Source of the DNA: an uncultured Granulosicoccaceae bacterium
GTDB lineage: Bacteria > Pseudomonadota > Gammaproteobacteria > CALCKW01
Reading direction: 5' to 3'
DNA length: 48,417 nucleotides
NCBI GenBank assembly: GCA_937925815.1
Contig: CALAMQ010000066.1
Span: forward strand, 1 to 48,417
Shown one piece after another: positions 25,606 to 33,791 of the stretch. Positions within the stretch are counted from its first letter, which is position 1; every line of letters begins with the position of its first letter. The position numbers and the translations under genes are program-made. The notes below the pieces were generated by a model. That model was given only the letters and a program-made list of their open reading frames with translations, made no database searches and was not told where the DNA came from.

Positions 25606-26493
25606 TCAGGACAGCAATTTTCTCAGTTTGTCGGCGGAGTCGCGGTCGAGGCCGGGTGCGATATCGAGTAATCGCGTGCTCAAACTGCGGTAAATCAGTG
25701 CCGCAGACGGGTCGCGTTGGTCGAGCTCTGAGAGGTGCGCCGCAACGGTGCCGAGGTCGCCTCGCGACACCGGTCCACTCAGGGCCTGCGCCGAGCCAGA
25801 CGCACCGACGTTCGCGACCACCCCACCGGCGAGATCGGCAAAGAGCGCCCGCGCTGTCGCCTCTGGTACTCCTGCAGCGCACCAAGTCTCAATCGCTGCA
25901 TCCGCCAGCGCAACGATGGCGTTTCCGGCGAGAGACGCCGCGCCGTGGTAAGCGGTTTTGGCGCTGGCATCAACCGCAAAACACCGCCCACCGAGGCCGC
26001 TAAAGAGCGTATCCAGGCACGCCACACCCCCCGGATCGCCCTCGAGCGCGCACCACGTCTGACCAAAAGCCAACGCGGTATCGAGCGCCGGGAAGCTGCG
26101 CATGGGGTGACCGCTTGCAACCGAGAATCCGCGCGCGCGCAGCGCCTTGAGCGCAGAACTACTGCGCGATCCGGCGAAATGCACAGCAAGCCCTGTGGCT
26201 CGATCAGCTTGCGCCTGTGCGATGTGCGCTGCCACGTCCTCTAGCGTGTCGTCCGGGGTCGCGACCAGCCACAGGTCGACCTTCGGCACCTCAGTGGCGG
26301 AGAGATAGGTGCCACAGCGCAACTGTTCAGCCACCGGGTGCGGCGCTGAGCGCGCGAGCACCGCCTCAACGCGCAACAAGCCCGCCGCTTGCCACGCAAG
26401 GGTAAGCGAGCCGCCTGCGCGCCCCGGGCCGACCAAACACGCGCGCAGCGGTTCGCCACCGCGTTCTATGTCATCACTGCCAACCGCTGTCAT
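25606..26493 (-). CDS. Rossmann-fold/DUF2520 protein, candidate ketopantoate reductase
   Basis: A 295-residue protein with an N-terminal NAD(P)-binding Rossmann domain ([21 protein letters not shown], then [16 protein letters not shown]) and a C-terminal helical DUF2520 domain ([38 protein letters not shown]). In between, SGHPMRSFP is the conserved linker of the family. It resembles a 6-phosphogluconate dehydrogenase-type reductase. Because it heads the panB-panC run and no panE is seen nearby, reduction of ketopantoate to pantoate is an attractive role; an unrelated alternative ketopantoate reductase (PanG) is known in Francisella. That role here is inference. Confidence 0.82.
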
Positions 26494-26570
26494 GTCCGGC
26501 CTCTACACCGTCTGCGCCAAGGCATATATCCTGCTCGCAGCAAGGCAATCCCACAACCGCCGCGACTGCA

Positions 26571-27008
26571 ATGTCACACATTTTTGCCACACGCCGTCAC
26601 CTCGTCCGCTTGCTCGCGCTGCCGGCTGTGGGCGCTGGCTTGTCGTTGGCGTCAAACGCTGAATCTAACCCGTTATTCACTGCGGTGTCCGAGCGCGGCC
26701 ACTTTGAAGTCAGTGCCGCGCCGCAAGATCAGCTGCTGCCCATCGGCACGCTGCACACCTGGACGGTGCAACTGCTCGACGTCTCTGGACGGCCGCTTGG
26801 CAACGCGGCGCTCGCGGTCGGCGGTGGCATGGCCGCACACGGGCACGGACTGCCGACCCGCCCTGTGGTCACGCCCACCGATCGCGTCGGTGAATTCCGT
26901 GTCGAGGGAATCAAATTCAACATGGCCGGCAGCTGGACGCTGCGCTTTGGCATCGAACACGGCACAACGCGTGACATTGCCGAGATCACATTTGATGTCG
27001 ACTTCTAA
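26571..27008 (+). CDS. YtkA/FixH-like exported protein
   Basis: A 145-residue exported protein. Residues 1-30 form a signal peptide with a twin-arginine-like motif ([13 protein letters not shown]), so Tat export is possible. The mature part is a single beta-sandwich-like domain with the pattern [32 protein letters not shown] and [17 protein letters not shown]. This is typical of YtkA/FixH-like proteins; the GGGM-x-x-H-x-HG segment with Met and His residues would suit metal (copper) binding. It overlaps the cytochrome c peroxidase gene by 14 nt, so the two are probably made together and act in the periplasm. Exact role unknown. Confidence 0.8.
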
Positions 27009-28236
27009 GGCCTTAGCACTGGTCACGCTGTTTTGCGCAGCAATGGACAGCGCGAGCGCCACGCCATGGGAGTGGACCGCGCGCGAGGTTCGCGTGCTCA
27101 AGAGTTTCTCGCTCAGCGCACTGGGTGATCCGCCACCGTCGCCCGGCAACCGCTGGGCAGATGATCCAGGCGCCGCGACGCTCGGTGAAGCGATCTTTTT
27201 TGACCCGTCCTTCAGTGCAAACGACCAACTCTCCTGCGCAAGCTGCCACGCACCAGACTTGGATTTCGCTGACGGTCTCACGCGCGCGCAGGGCTTGGGC
27301 GCTGGCAACCGCAACACCCCAACCATCACCGGCACCGCGTGGAACACCTGGTTTTACTGGGACGGCCGGCGCGACTCGCTCTGGGCACAGGCCCTGATCC
27401 CGTTTGAAGCGCACAACGAGATGGGCTCAGACCGTTTGTCCGTTGTCCGCAATGTGGCATCAAGCCACACACTCACCGCGAACTACGAAGCTGTTTTTGG
27501 ACCCTTGCCAGAATTTGACGATATCGCAGTGGCGCGCGCGAGCCCGCTCGCGGACGCAGCCCTGCGTGACAGCTGGTACCGCTTGAATTCTGAGCAGCAA
27601 CGGCGAATCAACACCGTGTTTGTGAACATCGGCAAAGCGGTCGCGGCCTGGGAGCGCACGCAGCATTTCAAGCCCAGCGCATTCGATAGCTATATCGACA
27701 GTCTTGACGCGCTAGGTGAGACCGAGAACACCCCCGAGATCAGCGACGACATCAAAGCAGGCGCCAGGCTGTTCATGGACGCTGATACCACGCAGTGCTT
27801 GCAATGCCACAACGGCCCGACCTTAACTAACGGTGGATTTCACAACATTGGCACTGGCAACTTCGACGGCGACATGCTCGATTTCGGCCGCGTATTTGGC
27901 TTGCAAGCGGTGTTGATGGATGAGTTCAATTGCCTCGGTCCCTACAGCGACGCCGCACCCGAGGATTGCACCGCATTGCGTTTTCTGAATCGCGGACACC
28001 ACATCCCGCTTGAGGGTGCGTTCAAAACACCGTCACTGCGCGGCGTCGACGGCACTGCGCCCTACTTTCACGATGGCTCGGCTGCGACGCTAAAAGATGT
28101 GATGCAGCACTACAATCGTCCGCCAGACACAGCCAAGGTCGGTGAACACGAGCTCAACGCACTTGAGCTAACCGACACCGACATCGAGTCCTTGGTCGCT
28201 TTCATGCAGGCGTTGACCAAGGCTGCCACCGACTGA
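26995..28236 (+). CDS. Di-heme cytochrome c peroxidase / MauG family protein
   Basis: A 413-residue periplasmic protein with a Sec signal peptide ([17 protein letters not shown]) and two heme c sites: CASCH (Cys81, Cys84, His85) and CLQCH (Cys268, Cys271, His272). Other family segments are [55 protein letters not shown] and [10 protein letters not shown]. Bacterial cytochrome c peroxidases reduce hydrogen peroxide; MauG relatives oxidise partner proteins. Which applies here is not clear. The open frame extends 202 codons upstream, but that part is out of frame with the YtkA-like gene. The ATG at 26995 begins the signal peptide and overlaps the partner gene. Confidence 0.88.
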
Positions 28237-28712: not shown

Positions 28713-28741
28713 TTCACCCGATACCGGCCACGTGGTGTAAT
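28713..28741 (+). promoter_or_regulatory. Predicted sigma-70 promoter of tmcA
   Basis: TTCACC (28713-28718) and TGTAAT (28736-28741) are separated by exactly 17 nt, with 4/6 and 5/6 matches to the sigma-70 consensus. Transcription would start near 28748, giving a leader of about 20 nt before the GTG of tmcA. It would drive the whole four-gene operon that ends with the SPL-like gene. Confidence 0.45.
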
Positions 28742-28766
28742 AGCCCGACTCCGGACCAAAGCCGCC

Positions 28767-30569
28767 GTGCACACCCATTCATCACCCCATCCGACGCCCA
28801 GCACCGACTCCTCACAATGCTGGCGTAAGCTCACCGTGATCACGGGGACTGCCGCCGCATGCCGTCTGCACGCGCAACGGACGCTCGCAGCTGTTGACCA
28901 AAAGCGCTGGGTTGGCGACAACACGCCAGATACCTTTGAAGGGGTGTCGATGCGCGGGGCCAAACGCTGGCTTGGCAGCGAATGCGATGCACTGGTATTC
29001 GATGCCCACGATGGGTTTGACCCGGACGCACTGGGGGCTGCCGCGGGCACAGTGCGCGCCGCTGGCAGTCTGCTGCTGCTCACGCCTCCGCTCGGCGAGT
29101 GGGCCACACTTGCCGACCCAGTCAACGACCGCGTTGCGGTGCACGGCACCACTGTCGATCACTCGCGCTATCTCGCACGGTGCGCGCGGTTGCTGCCAAC
29201 ACTGCCCTGCGATCTGCGCGACGCCGACTCAGATCCGGTACCGGAACCGGGACCGAAACCCAAGGTTCCAGCTCCACCATCAAACCATGACAACGGCCCA
29301 GGTCGGCCCACCGCCGACCAACAACAGCTTATTGACAGCATCATTGACGACTTGAGCGCACCCGGTGCATGCGCGACCGTTGTTCAGGCCGACCGCGGCC
29401 GGGGCAAGTCGGCGGCACTCGGGCAACTGGCGGCCGCCTTGGCGAAGTGCGGACGCCGTGTCACGGTTACCGCACCGCGACGCTGCGTCTGCGACACCTT
29501 GTTTAAACACGCCGCGCAGCACTGGCCCACAGGCCAGAAAGTATCAGACTTGGCTTTTATAGCACCCGATCAAGCGCACACCATTGAGAACCCAGACGTT
29601 TTGCTGGTTGACGAAGCGGGCGGTTTGCACCTGGGATTGACACGGAAACTATTGCAACACTGGCAGAAAGTGGTATTTGCAGGCACTGTTCACGGGTACG
29701 AAGGCGCGGGGCGAGGTTTTCGCACGCGCTTTGAAACACTGATCAGCGGCCTGCCCCACCGCACGCAAGAGCACACGCTGACAGTCCCGTTGCGTTGGCC
29801 AGAAAATGACCCACTGGAGACAAGCGTCAATACACTGTTGATGCTGGATGCTGAGTGCAGCACAACTGGCGATCAATCCAAATGCAGATGGCTGGACCGC
29901 GACGCGCTGTCTGCTGACGAAACACCGCTGCGGGCGCTGTACGCGCTGCTGGCCACAGCCCATTACCGCACCCGCCCGCTGGACCTTCGCCAACTGCTAG
30001 ACGGCCCGAATTTGCGCATCGCGGTGATAGAGCAAGGTGGCCAGCCAACGGCGGCTGCGCTGGTCGCCGACGAAGGTGAATTTACCGACCGTTCATTGGT
30101 TGACGATATCGCCGCTGGCAAGCGGCGACCGCGCGGTCACTTGCTGCCCCAACTGTTGACTTGGCAATACCAAGAACACGCAGCATGCGAGCAGCGCTGG
30201 TGGCGCGTCGTGCGCATTGCGGTGCACCCTGATCGGCAACGCAATGGCTTGGGCAGCGAACTGCTCGCGTGGCTGCGTTCCGAGGCCACATCACAGTCTG
30301 TGGACGCTCTTTGCACAAGCTTCGGCGCAGACCCAACGGTGCTGCCATTTTGGCAGCGCGCGAATTTCTCGCCGGTCTATCTTGGGCACGTGCGTGAAGC
30401 GACAAGCGGTGCGTTTGCGCTTGCGATGGTGCACCCACTGAGCCAGCGTGGGCACGATCTGCACAGGCGGGTGTCGTTCGCGTTCAAGGCGCACCGACAG
30501 ACACGTGTCGGCATTGAATCGTGGTTGAACCACTATTTTGCAAGCCTGGATGACAGCCGTGAAAACTGA
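28767..30569 (+). CDS. tmcA: tRNA(Met) cytidine acetyltransferase TmcA
   Basis: TmcA makes N4-acetylcytidine at the wobble base of elongator tRNA-Met, using ATP and acetyl-CoA. The 600-residue protein has, in order, an N-terminal Rossmann-like domain, and a helicase-like domain with Walker A DRGRGKSAALG (about residues 209-219), Walker B LLVDEAGGLHL and motif VVFAGTVHGYEGAGRGF. A GNAT domain follows, with VVRIAVHPDRQRNGLGSELL and FGADPTVLPFWQRANF. The C-terminus is short compared with the 671-residue E. coli enzyme, and a Pro-rich linker sits near residue 160. Start codon is GTG. The end overlaps the next glycosyltransferase gene by 20 nt. Confidence 0.92.
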   Translation: MHTHSSPHPTPSTDSSQCWRKLTVITGTAAACRLHAQRTLAAVDQKRWVGDNTPDTFEGVSMRGAKRWLGSECDALVFDAHDGFDPDALGAAAGTVRAAGSLLLLTPPLGEWATLADPVNDRVAVHGTTVDHSRYLARCARLLPTLPCDLRDADSDPVPEPGPKPKVPAPPSNHDNGPGRPTADQQQLIDSIIDDLSAPGACATVVQADRGRGKSAALGQLAAALAKCGRRVTVTAPRRCVCDTLFKHAAQHWPTGQKVSDLAFIAPDQAHTIENPDVLLVDEAGGLHLGLTRKLLQHWQKVVFAGTVHGYEGAGRGFRTRFETLISGLPHRTQEHTLTVPLRWPENDPLETSVNTLLMLDAECSTTGDQSKCRWLDRDALSADETPLRALYALLATAHYRTRPLDLRQLLDGPNLRIAVIEQGGQPTAAALVADEGEFTDRSLVDDIAAGKRRPRGHLLPQLLTWQYQEHAACEQRWWRVVRIAVHPDRQRNGLGSELLAWLRSEATSQSVDALCTSFGADPTVLPFWQRANFSPVYLGHVREATSGAFALAMVHPLSQRGHDLHRRVSFAFKAHRQTRVGIESWLNHYFASLDDSREN

Positions 30570-31404
30570 CGTCAGCGTCATCATTCCAACCCACAATCGC
30601 CGCCACACGCTTGCGACCACACTCGAATCCGTGGCCAGCCAATCGCATGCGGCGGCCGAAGTTATCGTGATCGACGATGGCTCGAGCGACGGCACTGCAA
30701 CGTGGCTACGCAAGGCATGGCCGAGCGTGACGCTGATTGAACAAGCCAATTCAGGCGTGAGCGCCGCGCGCAACCGCGGCATTGAAAGTGCGACGTCCAC
30801 CTGGATTGCGCTGCTCGACTCCGACGACGCCTGGGCGCCTGCGAAACTCGCGCGGCAATTCGAGGCACTAGCCGCCGAGCCCATGCACCGGCTCTGCCAC
30901 TGCGATGAGTTGTGGTTTCGATGCGGCGTGCGCGTCAACCCCAAAGTACGCCACCGCAAAAGTGGCGGCCACATTTTCGAGGCCTGTCTGCCACTGTGCG
31001 CGATCTCCCCCTCGGCGGCACTGATTCGGGCCGATGTGTTCGATGATATCGGTCATTTCGACGAATCACTGCCCGCGTGCGAAGATTACGATTTCTGGTT
31101 GCGCTTCTGCGCGCGCGAGCCCGTGCTGTTTGTCGACGAAGCGCTGGTGATCAAGACCGGGGGCCACAGCGACCAACTCTCACGACGCTATCCCGCCATG
31201 GACCGCTACCGTATACAGGCACTGATGACCCTGCTCGAACACACCCCACTCGGCGACACACAGCGCGCGGCGGCCGTGGCCACCTTGCGAGAAAAGATCG
31301 CCGTCTACGGTGCCGGCGCGCGCAAACGCGGTCGCGGCGACGAAATTGATGCCCTGCAAAGCCGCTTTGAGGCCCTGATTGGAGACTCACCTCCGTGCTC
31401 GTGA
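30550..31404 (+). CDS. Family 2 glycosyltransferase
   Basis: A 284-residue GT2 enzyme with the standard fold: DVSVIIPTHNRRHTLATTLE at the start, VIVIDDGSSDGTATWL, NSGVSAARNRGI, and the catalytic Asp-x-Asp region in WIALLDSDDAWAP. Later, FDESLPACEDYDFWLRF carries the conserved acidic base and ED-x-D-F-W motif. It is soluble or peripheral, with no membrane helix. The ATG at 30550 overlaps tmcA by 20 nt; another start lies four codons upstream. Donor and acceptor are unknown. Its place between tmcA and an unknown gene is unusual for a glycosyltransferase. Confidence 0.88.
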   Translation: MTAVKTDVSVIIPTHNRRHTLATTLESVASQSHAAAEVIVIDDGSSDGTATWLRKAWPSVTLIEQANSGVSAARNRGIESATSTWIALLDSDDAWAPAKLARQFEALAAEPMHRLCHCDELWFRCGVRVNPKVRHRKSGGHIFEACLPLCAISPSAALIRADVFDDIGHFDESLPACEDYDFWLRFCAREPVLFVDEALVIKTGGHSDQLSRRYPAMDRYRIQALMTLLEHTPLGDTQRAAAVATLREKIAVYGAGARKRGRGDEIDALQSRFEALIGDSPPCS

Positions 31405-32057
31405 TTGATGTGCAATCGCGCTTGACGCGCCCTGATGACGCGCAGGTGATCGCGCTCGATCCCACCGCGTCGCTCGAACGCGTGTGCACTGACCTAGACG
31501 ACGCGCTCGCGCAGAGCACCCCGGCAGACAACAGCGCCTATCTCGTGATCACGCAAGACCCCAATTGGGCGCACGACAGCGATCAGCCACAGTTGGTCAA
31601 TTGCATCGCATCGGACGGGGACACACGGTACCCGCAGATCCATTTTCGAAGCCCGCTCGCGCAGACTGCGCTGCGCCGGCCCACGGACACCGCGCGCGTG
31701 ATAGCCATCTACGACAAGCTGATTCGGCACCAAGCAGCTGAGCTCGTGCAGTGTGTCGTCGCGCCACCAAACGCACAGCCGGCGACTATTCAGGCTGCAC
31801 TTGAGGTACTGGCGACCGCCATGAACCCACTGCGCGAGGCCAAGCCAAGCGTCGTGCCTGAAGATGTCCTCAACGCGCTGTCTGAGGGAATTCACTACAC
31901 CCACAGTGACAGCCTGCAACTCGCACGGCTGTGCAGCCGTTACCACGCCTTGTTCAAACGATGGCCAACCGCCTCAAAGGCACGTCAGTCCACAGCGCGC
32001 GCCACCCTCAAATACCTTGAATCTGAGATCGAGTCTTTTAAGTTGGCCTTCCAGTGA
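31395..32057 (+). CDS. Unrecognised 220-residue protein in the tmcA/SPL operon
   Basis: A 220-residue protein beginning (GTG start) MLVIDVQSRLTRPDDAQV. It overlaps the glycosyltransferase by 10 nt and the SPL-like gene by four bases (GTGA), so it is surely translated with them. The first half looks alpha/beta with short strands (AYLVITQDP, RVIAIYDKLI); the second half is mostly helical, with YLESEIESFKLAFQ at the end. There is no signal peptide or membrane helix, and only a few scattered cysteines (positions 31, 70, 119, 180). I do not recognise a family or a catalytic motif. A partner of the radical SAM protein is a fair guess from coupling only. Confidence 0.75.
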   Translation: MLVIDVQSRLTRPDDAQVIALDPTASLERVCTDLDDALAQSTPADNSAYLVITQDPNWAHDSDQPQLVNCIASDGDTRYPQIHFRSPLAQTALRRPTDTARVIAIYDKLIRHQAAELVQCVVAPPNAQPATIQAALEVLATAMNPLREAKPSVVPEDVLNALSEGIHYTHSDSLQLARLCSRYHALFKRWPTASKARQSTARATLKYLESEIESFKLAFQ

Positions 32058-33076
32058 TTGAGTCTGTCTACGTTGAAGCGGAAGTGATGGATCACCCACG
32101 CACGCGTGAGGTGCTCGCGCGGCTGCCGCGCGCGACGGTGCACACCATCGAGCGCTACGGCGAGCTCTTCAACCGCAAGCGACAAAACTTCCGCCTGCAA
32201 AAACAACAGCCAGCGTTGATTCTCGCGCGCAAGCACGCCAACCACGTGCTCGCAGCGCCACCGGAATACAACATCGGCGGGCAGCACAACTTCTACTTCA
32301 GCCACCTGCTCAACTGCGTCTACGACTGCCGCTACTGCTTTTTGCAGGGGATGTTCAGAAGCGCCAACTACGTCCTCTTCGTCAACTACGAGGACTTCTT
32401 TGAGCGCATCGCGGCAACGCAGCGGGAATTGACCACACCGGGTTGGTACTTCTCAGGCTACGACTGCGACTCGCTCGCGCTCGAACCCTGGAGCGGCTTT
32501 GCGGTTGAAGCAATCAACTGGTTCAGACAGCACCCCGACTGCCACATCGAACTGCGCACCAAGAGCACGCAGATACGCGGCTTGCTCAAGCAACCTGCCA
32601 TCGACAACGCCGTGGTTGCTTTCAGCCTCGCGCCGGACCCAATAGCCCGCGCGCTCGAGCACAAAGCGCCAAGCCTGCAAAAACGCCTGGACGCGCTCCG
32701 CCAATTGGCCGATGCCGGCTGGCGTATCGGGTTGCGCTTTGATCCCGTGATCTGGGCGGAGAACCACGAGCAACTGTACGGCGACTTCTTCACAGCGGTC
32801 TTCAACGCGCTGCCGGTGGACGCGGTGCACTCGGTCAGCTTGGGCGGCTTCCGACTGCCAACCGACTTCATGAAGACCGTCACCAAGTTGCACCCGGAAG
32901 AGCCACTGTTTGCCATGCCGATGTCAACCAGCGACGGCATGGTGTCAGTTGAATCACAACGCGAACAAACGCTGCTGCGCTACTGCCGCGACCGCATTCT
33001 CGCGCACCTACCAGACGACCGCTTCTACCCCTGCCAAGCCATTGACGACAGCGTCGAGCCGCTTAAGGACGGCTGA
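32054..33076 (+). CDS. Spore photoproduct lyase-like radical SAM protein
   Basis: A 340-residue radical SAM protein similar to spore photoproduct lyase (SplB), which repairs the 5-thyminyl-dihydrothymine lesion in spore DNA. The iron-sulfur motif is Cys-x3-Cys-x2-Cys in LLNCVYDCRYCFLQGMF (Cys88, Cys92, Cys95). Other family segments are SHLLNCVYDCRYC flanks, YFSGYDCDSLALE, IELRTKSTQI, VAFSLAPDPIARALEH and IGLRFDPVIWAENH. Nothing suggests a spore-forming host, so the lesion or substrate may differ. It begins with GTG, overlapping the unknown gene. The 3' end overlaps the convergent YdjM-like gene by 14 nt. Confidence 0.87.
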   Translation: MIESVYVEAEVMDHPRTREVLARLPRATVHTIERYGELFNRKRQNFRLQKQQPALILARKHANHVLAAPPEYNIGGQHNFYFSHLLNCVYDCRYCFLQGMFRSANYVLFVNYEDFFERIAATQRELTTPGWYFSGYDCDSLALEPWSGFAVEAINWFRQHPDCHIELRTKSTQIRGLLKQPAIDNAVVAFSLAPDPIARALEHKAPSLQKRLDALRQLADAGWRIGLRFDPVIWAENHEQLYGDFFTAVFNALPVDAVHSVSLGGFRLPTDFMKTVTKLHPEEPLFAMPMSTSDGMVSVESQREQTLLRYCRDRILAHLPDDRFYPCQAIDDSVEPLKDG

Positions 33077-33791
33077 CCAGCCCGTTGAACCACACGCCCT
33101 CTGGCAACAGAATGCCGCGAAAGGCCCCGAGCAAATCTTGCTGGACAAAAAGATCCAACAACGGTCTTGGATCAGGTGCAACCGCTACCGCCACCGCCAG
33201 CAGCGCCCATGTCAACGCCGTGGTGAAATAATTTCGACGGTCAAAGAGTTTCATTGCGGTGCCAAAAGAGCGCTTAATTCGGCGGCCGGTGATGTTGACG
33301 CTGACCAATTCGTCGAGCGCAAGGTGTTGCAGATAGGCCAAGCTCACAACCAGGCCGTAGAGCGTTGCGATAAACGCCGTTTGCGCAAACAGCGCGTGCA
33401 GCACGTTTGCGGTTAACACACCCGCGAGCAAAGCCGCCGGCACCGAGTGATACATCCCGCGGTGAACGGTAATCGCAGCAAAGAGGTGCGCGAAGGCCAC
33501 CCTCGTGACAACGTAGAGCACCAGCCACAAGATCACGCTCTCGGCAATCGACAAACGGTTGGCCACGGCAAACACCGAGGCGAAGGCGAGCAACACAGCG
33601 AGCACGCTAAAGGCGATGTTCACAGGCGTGCTGCGCTCGGCGTCGAGGTCAGGCGCAAGACCGCCGGCGGTGCCGAGCACAAAGCACAGTGTCGCCTCGG
33701 CGGGTTCAATGTGGCCGAGCGCCAGAAGACCGGTTGCGATCATGCCGCTCTGCACCGCTGCCGCTGAAAAATGGGTATTGAAATTGGCCAC
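33063..33791 (-). CDS. YdjM-family membrane-bound hydrolase
   Basis: A 242-residue inner-membrane protein of the YdjM/LexA-regulated hydrolase-like family. It starts MANFNTHFSAAAVQSG with the conserved Asn-x-x-Thr-His, followed by GLAPDLDAERSTP (Pro-Asp-x-Asp metal-binding region) and HRGMYHSVPAALLAG, where the two histidines complete the putative metal site. AYLQHLALDELVSVNITG adds a third cluster. Five or so membrane helices are predicted. In E. coli ydjM is induced by DNA damage; I saw no clear LexA box (CTGT-N8-ACAG) upstream here. It is convergent with the SPL-like gene and divergent from alr. Confidence 0.82.
   Translation of the reverse strand: MANFNTHFSAAAVQSGMIATGLLALGHIEPAEATLCFVLGTAGGLAPDLDAERSTPVNIAFSVLAVLLAFASVFAVANRLSIAESVILWLVLYVVTRVAFAHLFAAITVHRGMYHSVPAALLAGVLTANVLHALFAQTAFIATLYGLVVSLAYLQHLALDELVSVNITGRRIKRSFGTAMKLFDRRNYFTTALTWALLAVAVAVAPDPRPLLDLFVQQDLLGAFRGILLPEGVWFNGLVSRP

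Follow-up and report, generated by a model that had tools for sequence, protein, structure and literature searches.

A co-inherited gene module built around a spore photoproduct lyase-like radical SAM enzyme in Gammaproteobacteria, Fusobacterium and gut bacteria, with a possible role in adenosyl-radical biosynthesis

In menaquinone biosynthesis, adenosyl addition by the radical S-adenosylmethionine (SAM) enzyme MqnE is paired with adenine removal by MqnB, a protein of the purine nucleoside phosphorylase (PNP) fold. In hopanoid biosynthesis, HpnH adds the adenosyl radical, HpnG removes adenine and the glycosyltransferase HpnI acts later, with a reduction to bacteriohopanetetrol by an unidentified enzyme placed between HpnG and HpnI (PMC12583986). 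The AprD4/AprD3 pair consists of a radical SAM dehydratase and an NADPH-dependent reductase that act on a sugar (PMC5461906), and spore photoproduct lyase (SPL; SplB) relies on a cysteine as hydrogen donor and on a tyrosine (PMC3742179). Here we describe a locus in contig CALAMQ010000066.1 of an uncultured Granulosicoccaceae bacterium, analyzed as one stretch of 48,417 nucleotides (the window), that encodes a family 2 glycosyltransferase (GT2), a 220-residue protein that we call X220, and an SPL-like radical SAM enzyme. These three genes are the window genus version of a co-inherited module composed of GT2, X (the family to which X220 belongs), an SPL-like enzyme, and a short-chain dehydrogenase/reductase (SDR). 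The module was previously unnamed and ranges across gammaproteobacteria, Fusobacterium, and gut bacteria; we found no paper on it in the literature searched, outside which most subscription journals lie.

The source genome is a 3.56-Mb draft of 183 contigs that is 99% complete, and the genomes compared with it are drafts with mechanical gene calls. As stated in the initial annotation and read directly from the sequence, the three genes and tmcA, which precedes them, all lie on the + strand with successive overlaps of 20, 10, and 4 nt. The features of the module in the window are:

30550..31404, + strand: GT2 glycosyltransferase, module member; ATG start, with a TTG at 30538 possible (PF00535, 3.7e-30)
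31395..32057, + strand: X220, predicted diverged and reduced member of the X family, with the fold of methylthioadenosine/S-adenosylhomocysteine nucleosidase (MTAN) and futalosine hydrolase; GTG start
31842..32054, + strand: C-terminal helical domain of X220, its best conserved part (HYTHS...LxRLCxRYHAL), from profile and alignment
32054..33076, + strand: SPL-like radical SAM enzyme, module family 1; GTG start (PF20903, 7.1e-17)
32315..32338, + strand: CxxxCxxC cluster motif CVYDCRYC, residues 88-95, followed by Phe96 where SPL has Tyr98 (Gt numbering)
32450..32473, + strand: FSGYDCDS motif, residues 133-140, with Tyr136 at the position of the SPL catalytic cysteine and Cys138 two residues on

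X is a genuine partner of the SPL-like enzyme, as the initial annotation had suggested for X220, and the pairing recurs in related genomes. A profile of the SPL-like family, run against 369 gammaproteobacterial genomes, detects 50 loci at E < 1e-137, which belong to 49 genomes from 29 families; the next SPL-like proteins appear at 1e-48 and weaker. X is encoded in 62 of the 63 genomes that have any SPL-like enzyme versus 1 of the 306 that have none (Fisher p ~2e-68, a test that ignores phylogeny), and about one in six of the sampled gammaproteobacteria carries the module. Across the genomes of three congeners and ten public drafts, the SPL-like gene is nearly always preceded by an X gene. The two adjoin in 43 of the 48 loci with enough flanking sequence, at a spacing of -20 to +8 nt. 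When X is not adjacent, it is present elsewhere in the genome in five of six cases (one such cassette is cut by a contig end), and the sole genome without X is 82% complete. In Fusobacterium vincentii, the two proteins are fused into one of 623 residues whose gene is followed by an SDR gene, and two contigs from human feces contain, respectively, an X-SPL-SDR cassette and a cassette in the order SDR, reduced X, SPL. Because the packing of GT2, X, and SPL-like genes is kept across many families, we regard it as more than chance.

The F. vincentii record (NZ_CP084075.1) is designated a plasmid, although its 2.1-Mb size points to a probable chromosome. The two fecal records are designated 'Bacteriophage sp.'; their cassettes lie among ordinary bacterial genes, and the records may be pieces of chromosome. 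We rejected a mobile or viral origin of the module: a viral contig collection contained no relatives, and the plasmid and phage matches consist of this Fusobacterium replicon and the unverified fecal contigs. One draft genome contains two SPL-X cassettes.

The partnership includes two additional enzymes. A GT2 gene is upstream of X in 33 of the 48 loci with enough flanking sequence, and an SDR gene is downstream of the SPL-like gene in 33 of 50. Among 18 genomes in which GT2 is non-adjacent, split off, or at a contig end (in one of them it is a spaced neighbor), at least 13 encode a GT2 ortholog at E < 1e-110 versus none of 21 control genomes, where the best match is 3.6e-48. A second SPL-like family, of ~430 residues, occurs in genomes that have GT2-X-SDR operons with the SPL gene elsewhere or convergent; in six such operons, X is without its C-terminal domain. 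The first and second SPL-like families sometimes occur within one taxonomic family (four instances). Three genomes carry a third SPL-like group, and in these X and GT2 form a single protein of ~495 residues. X domain-GT2 fusions are encoded at:

L140:2728-4209, - strand
L141:2778-4262, - strand
L142:2564-4066, - strand

Gene order, co-occurrence, fusions, and this swapping of enzymes are the basis on which we define the GT2-X-SPL-SDR module. The overlapping set of four genes described initially, which began with tmcA, is not the unit that emerges: in the loci compared, tmcA and the convergent YdjM-like gene adjoin the cassette in the window genus only. We therefore rejected tmcA as a functional member and regard it as a genus-level neighbor outside the module; GT2, to which the initial annotation gave no role, and an SDR that is absent from the window do belong to it. 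No SDR ortholog was detected at E < 1e-30 in the window genome or two congeners.

X220 has no match in Pfam or NCBIfam and was initially taken for a protein of unknown affiliation; comparison with its relatives indicates instead a diverged member of the MTAN/futalosine-hydrolase-fold family that lacks the active-site residues. X proteins of more distant genomes (~270 residues, hereafter intact X) match PF01048 (4.4e-8 in one of them) and the futalosine hydrolase and MTAN models. In NCBIfam, futalosine hydrolase ranks best (2.8e-11 in one sequence), followed by MTAN and HpnG, at scores below the curated cut-offs (43.6 versus 124.7 bits for futalosine hydrolase and 36.7 versus 169 for MTAN). An intact X modeled with AlphaFold resembles MTAN 3dp9 (E 1.6e-13, TM 0.53-0.69), which places intact X in the PNP/MTAN fold, and the catalytic residues E13, E135, and D160 (equivalents of E12/E174/D197) are present in 41 of 41 sequences. 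Intact X thus resembles MTAN in fold and catalytic E/E/D, and differs in these scores and in an extra C-terminal helical domain. The MqnE/MqnB pair likewise joins a radical SAM enzyme to a PNP-fold protein, but in the module the radical partner is an SPL-like enzyme and a GT2 accompanies the two. In an alignment, X220 and its two congener relatives have lost the N-terminal Glu and the DME and VSD motifs and have kept the C-terminal helical part, to which the match of X220 with the intact-X profile is limited (E 2.8e-6); hhalign relates the three genus members to intact X with a probability of 96.7 (E 3.4e-10). The AlphaFold model of X220 (pLDDT 83) finds weak Foldseek matches in the PDB to pyrrolidone carboxyl peptidases (E 0.006) and MTAN (E 0.25).

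The catalytic residues of X have been lost twice while the SPL-like enzyme was kept, in the window genus (three species) and in one of the fecal contigs (L099). Two explanations of X evolution were considered and rejected. The idea that X took the place of a housekeeping MTAN fails because, although canonical MTAN is found in 0 of 49 module genomes versus 25 of 320 others, the difference is not significant (p 0.06) and MTAN is scarce in the other genomes too. A coupled loss of X activity and SDR is contradicted by L099, which keeps an SDR with its reduced X, and by the many loci with intact X and no SDR.

The SPL-like enzyme belongs, as the initial annotation had it, to the broad SPL-like radical SAM group, although it falls outside true SPL. 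A search of the PDB with the family profile recovers SPL (4k9r, 4.6e-19) as the sole solved relative found by sequence. The SPL-like enzyme shares with SplB (TIGR04070/PF20903) the radical SAM core, the CxxxCxxC motif, the SAM-binding Tyr (Y96 in Gt), and conserved Lys170 and Asp139; residues C88, C92, Y94, C95, and F96 are each present in 50 of 50 aligned sequences, and the motif is that of a [4Fe-4S] cluster. However, the SPL catalytic cysteine (C141 in Bs, C140 in Gt), whose conservation the initial annotation had singled out as a check, is replaced by Tyr136 in 49 of 50 sequences and by His in one, within a segment in which D137 and D139 are found in 50 of 50 and C138 in 46 of 50 (Thr, Thr, and Ala at residue 138 in the Fusobacterium and gut homologs). 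At the position of the radical-relay Tyr (Y99 in Bs, Y98 in Gt), all 50 sequences have Phe, and the Fusobacterium and gut homologs have Tyr. Scores against TIGR04070 (79.5 bits, cut-off 400) and against TIGR03886, the 'spore photoproduct lyase family protein' model with which it shares the SPL-like superfamily (58.9 bits, cut-off 437.55), are low, and the cassette, Fusobacterium, and gut proteins group in a clade of their own (support 100/98) that excludes true SPL and the TIGR03886 proteins, at which the tree-building tool warns that long branches meet. Because the Cys/Tyr pair is missing, the enzyme is not expected to follow the published SPL chemistry, and classical repair of the thymine lesion (5-thyminyl-5,6-dihydrothymine) is unlikely. 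A Roseomonas plasmid encodes two overlapping tandem TIGR03886 SPL-family genes (L111:1480-3598), with Cys at the SPL catalytic position in one and Glu in the other.

We tentatively propose, with somewhat less than even confidence, that the module carries out the biosynthesis or modification of a small molecule or lipid by serial radical, adenine-removal, reduction, and glycosylation steps. The SPL-like enzyme would make a 5'-deoxyadenosyl radical and couple it to, or use it on, an acceptor; X would then cut adenine off the adenosyl-bearing intermediate, SDR would reduce the sugar carbonyl released in this way, or a ketone, and GT2 would add a sugar. We infer the order of the steps, their chemistry, and the acceptor. 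Fusions join X to the radical enzyme in one lineage and to the glycosyltransferase in another, so its substrate may lie between the two. This series would follow the logic of MqnE-MqnB in menaquinone biosynthesis and of hopanoid side-chain biosynthesis, which likewise combines a radical SAM enzyme, an adenine-removing enzyme of the PNP superfamily, and a GT2-type transferase; it differs in that the radical enzyme here is SPL-like and X scores 21.7 bits against an HpnG cut-off of 187. In the window genus, where the catalytic residues of X are gone and no SDR ortholog is found, a shortened version would be expected, with X as a non-catalytic subunit. In its most specific form, in which an acceptor receives the 5'-deoxyadenosyl group, loses the adenine, and then has the sugar reduced and finally glycosylated, the module could represent an undescribed SPL-family adenosyl-radical pathway that arose in, or spread among, Gammaproteobacteria, Fusobacteriota, and gut bacteria, with interchangeable SPL-like enzymes and a dead nucleosidase subunit kept twice; we consider this possible rather than probable.

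Several observations weigh against this biosynthetic proposal. If the X step were obligatory, X catalysis would not be expected to disappear where the SPL-like enzyme persists, as happened in the window genus and in L099, the latter with its SDR. GT2 is missing in one family (three genomes), and the surroundings of the Fusobacterium and gut cassettes showed none; SDR is absent beside many cassettes with intact X; and no acceptor gene recurs among the flanks of six loci. The analogy with hopanoid biosynthesis, moreover, rests on protein class and not on orthology.

Some of these observations are accommodated by a different division of labor, which we view as a credible alternative, if one short of an even chance: the SPL-like enzyme would perform a radical dehydration, epimerization, or other C-H reaction on a substrate glycosylated by GT2, SDR would reduce the resulting ketone, and X, docked to the radical enzyme, would clear 5'-deoxyadenosine. 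This compound inhibits radical SAM enzymes and is disposed of by MTA nucleosidase or phosphorylase (PMC8102628), and X has the predicted MTAN fold and catalytic residues. A by-product scavenger would tolerate the two losses of X catalysis in lineages that retain the SPL-like enzyme, which favors this alternative. An additional MTA/SAH nucleosidase (TIGR01705, 254 bits, cut-off 152) is present in the window genome, so either mechanism could tolerate a dead X220. The pairing of a radical SAM enzyme with an NADPH-dependent reductase on sugars has a precedent in AprD4/AprD3, a likeness of enzyme class, although the module also has a nucleosidase-fold protein and GT2. However, X is almost confined to the company of SPL-like enzymes and GT2 and does not accompany radical SAM enzymes generally, the X-GT2 fusion of one lineage is left unexplained by by-product clearing, and the deficit of canonical MTAN in module genomes, at p 0.06, lends no significant support. 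The X-GT2 fusion and the strict co-inheritance are the reasons for which we favor the biosynthetic proposal over by-product clearing.

Modification of a nucleoside in RNA, such as tRNA, would account for tmcA as the first gene, which overlaps GT2 in the window genus; we consider it improbable, as tmcA is unlinked outside that genus and MTAN-type enzymes act on free nucleosides. The remaining alternative, in which the SPL-like enzyme works with X220 to repair some DNA lesion besides the spore photoproduct, draws on the superfamily, radical SAM core, and SAM-binding Tyr common to SPL but is the least probable of all, given the replaced Cys and Tyr residues, the lack of damage-linked neighbors and of any excess of LexA boxes, and a co-inheritance with GT2, a nucleosidase-fold protein, and SDR that points to metabolism. 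The initial suggestion that the enzyme acts on another lesion or another substrate consequently survives in part: a role other than on the spore lesion agrees with the unconserved catalytic Cys, and metabolism is favored over another lesion because of the GT2 and SDR in its company.

The genes that flank the module in the window are:

28767..30569, + strand: tmcA, encoding a tRNA-Met cytidine acetyltransferase-like protein (PF05127, 2.8e-42; PF13718, 3e-24); genus-level neighbor
33063..33791, - strand: YdjM-like membrane protein, convergent and outside the module (PF04307, 28.4 bits versus a cut-off of 29)

The TmcA protein matches the NCBIfam TmcA model at 4.2e-108 with 362 bits, below the 700-bit cut-off. 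The fair promoter reported upstream of tmcA was not recovered: a scan of 5.5 kb yields one consensus site, inside tmcA, versus 1.0 expected, and none above chance. Nor does the hint of a DNA damage link drawn from the YdjM-like gene hold, as its Pfam match is just under the cut-off, its linkage is confined to the genus, and LexA-like boxes in the window number 16 versus 17.9 expected. Further upstream, positions 26389-28236 contain a di-heme cytochrome c peroxidase/MauG-type gene (PF03150, 1.6e-37), and a YtkA-like open reading frame (26571-27008) lies in another frame within that region.

'Spore photoproduct lyase' annotations in non-sporing bacteria are widely read as DNA repair, and the module would correct this reading in many genomes, given that GT2, a nucleosidase-fold protein, and SDR accompany an entire SPL-like clade as well as two further SPL-like groups and that the SPL hydrogen-donor residue is missing. 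The two independently arisen dead nucleosidases make a role of X as a partner protein testable. As a concrete set of four enzymes with a searchable product, the module would widen the repertoire of radical SAM enzymes.

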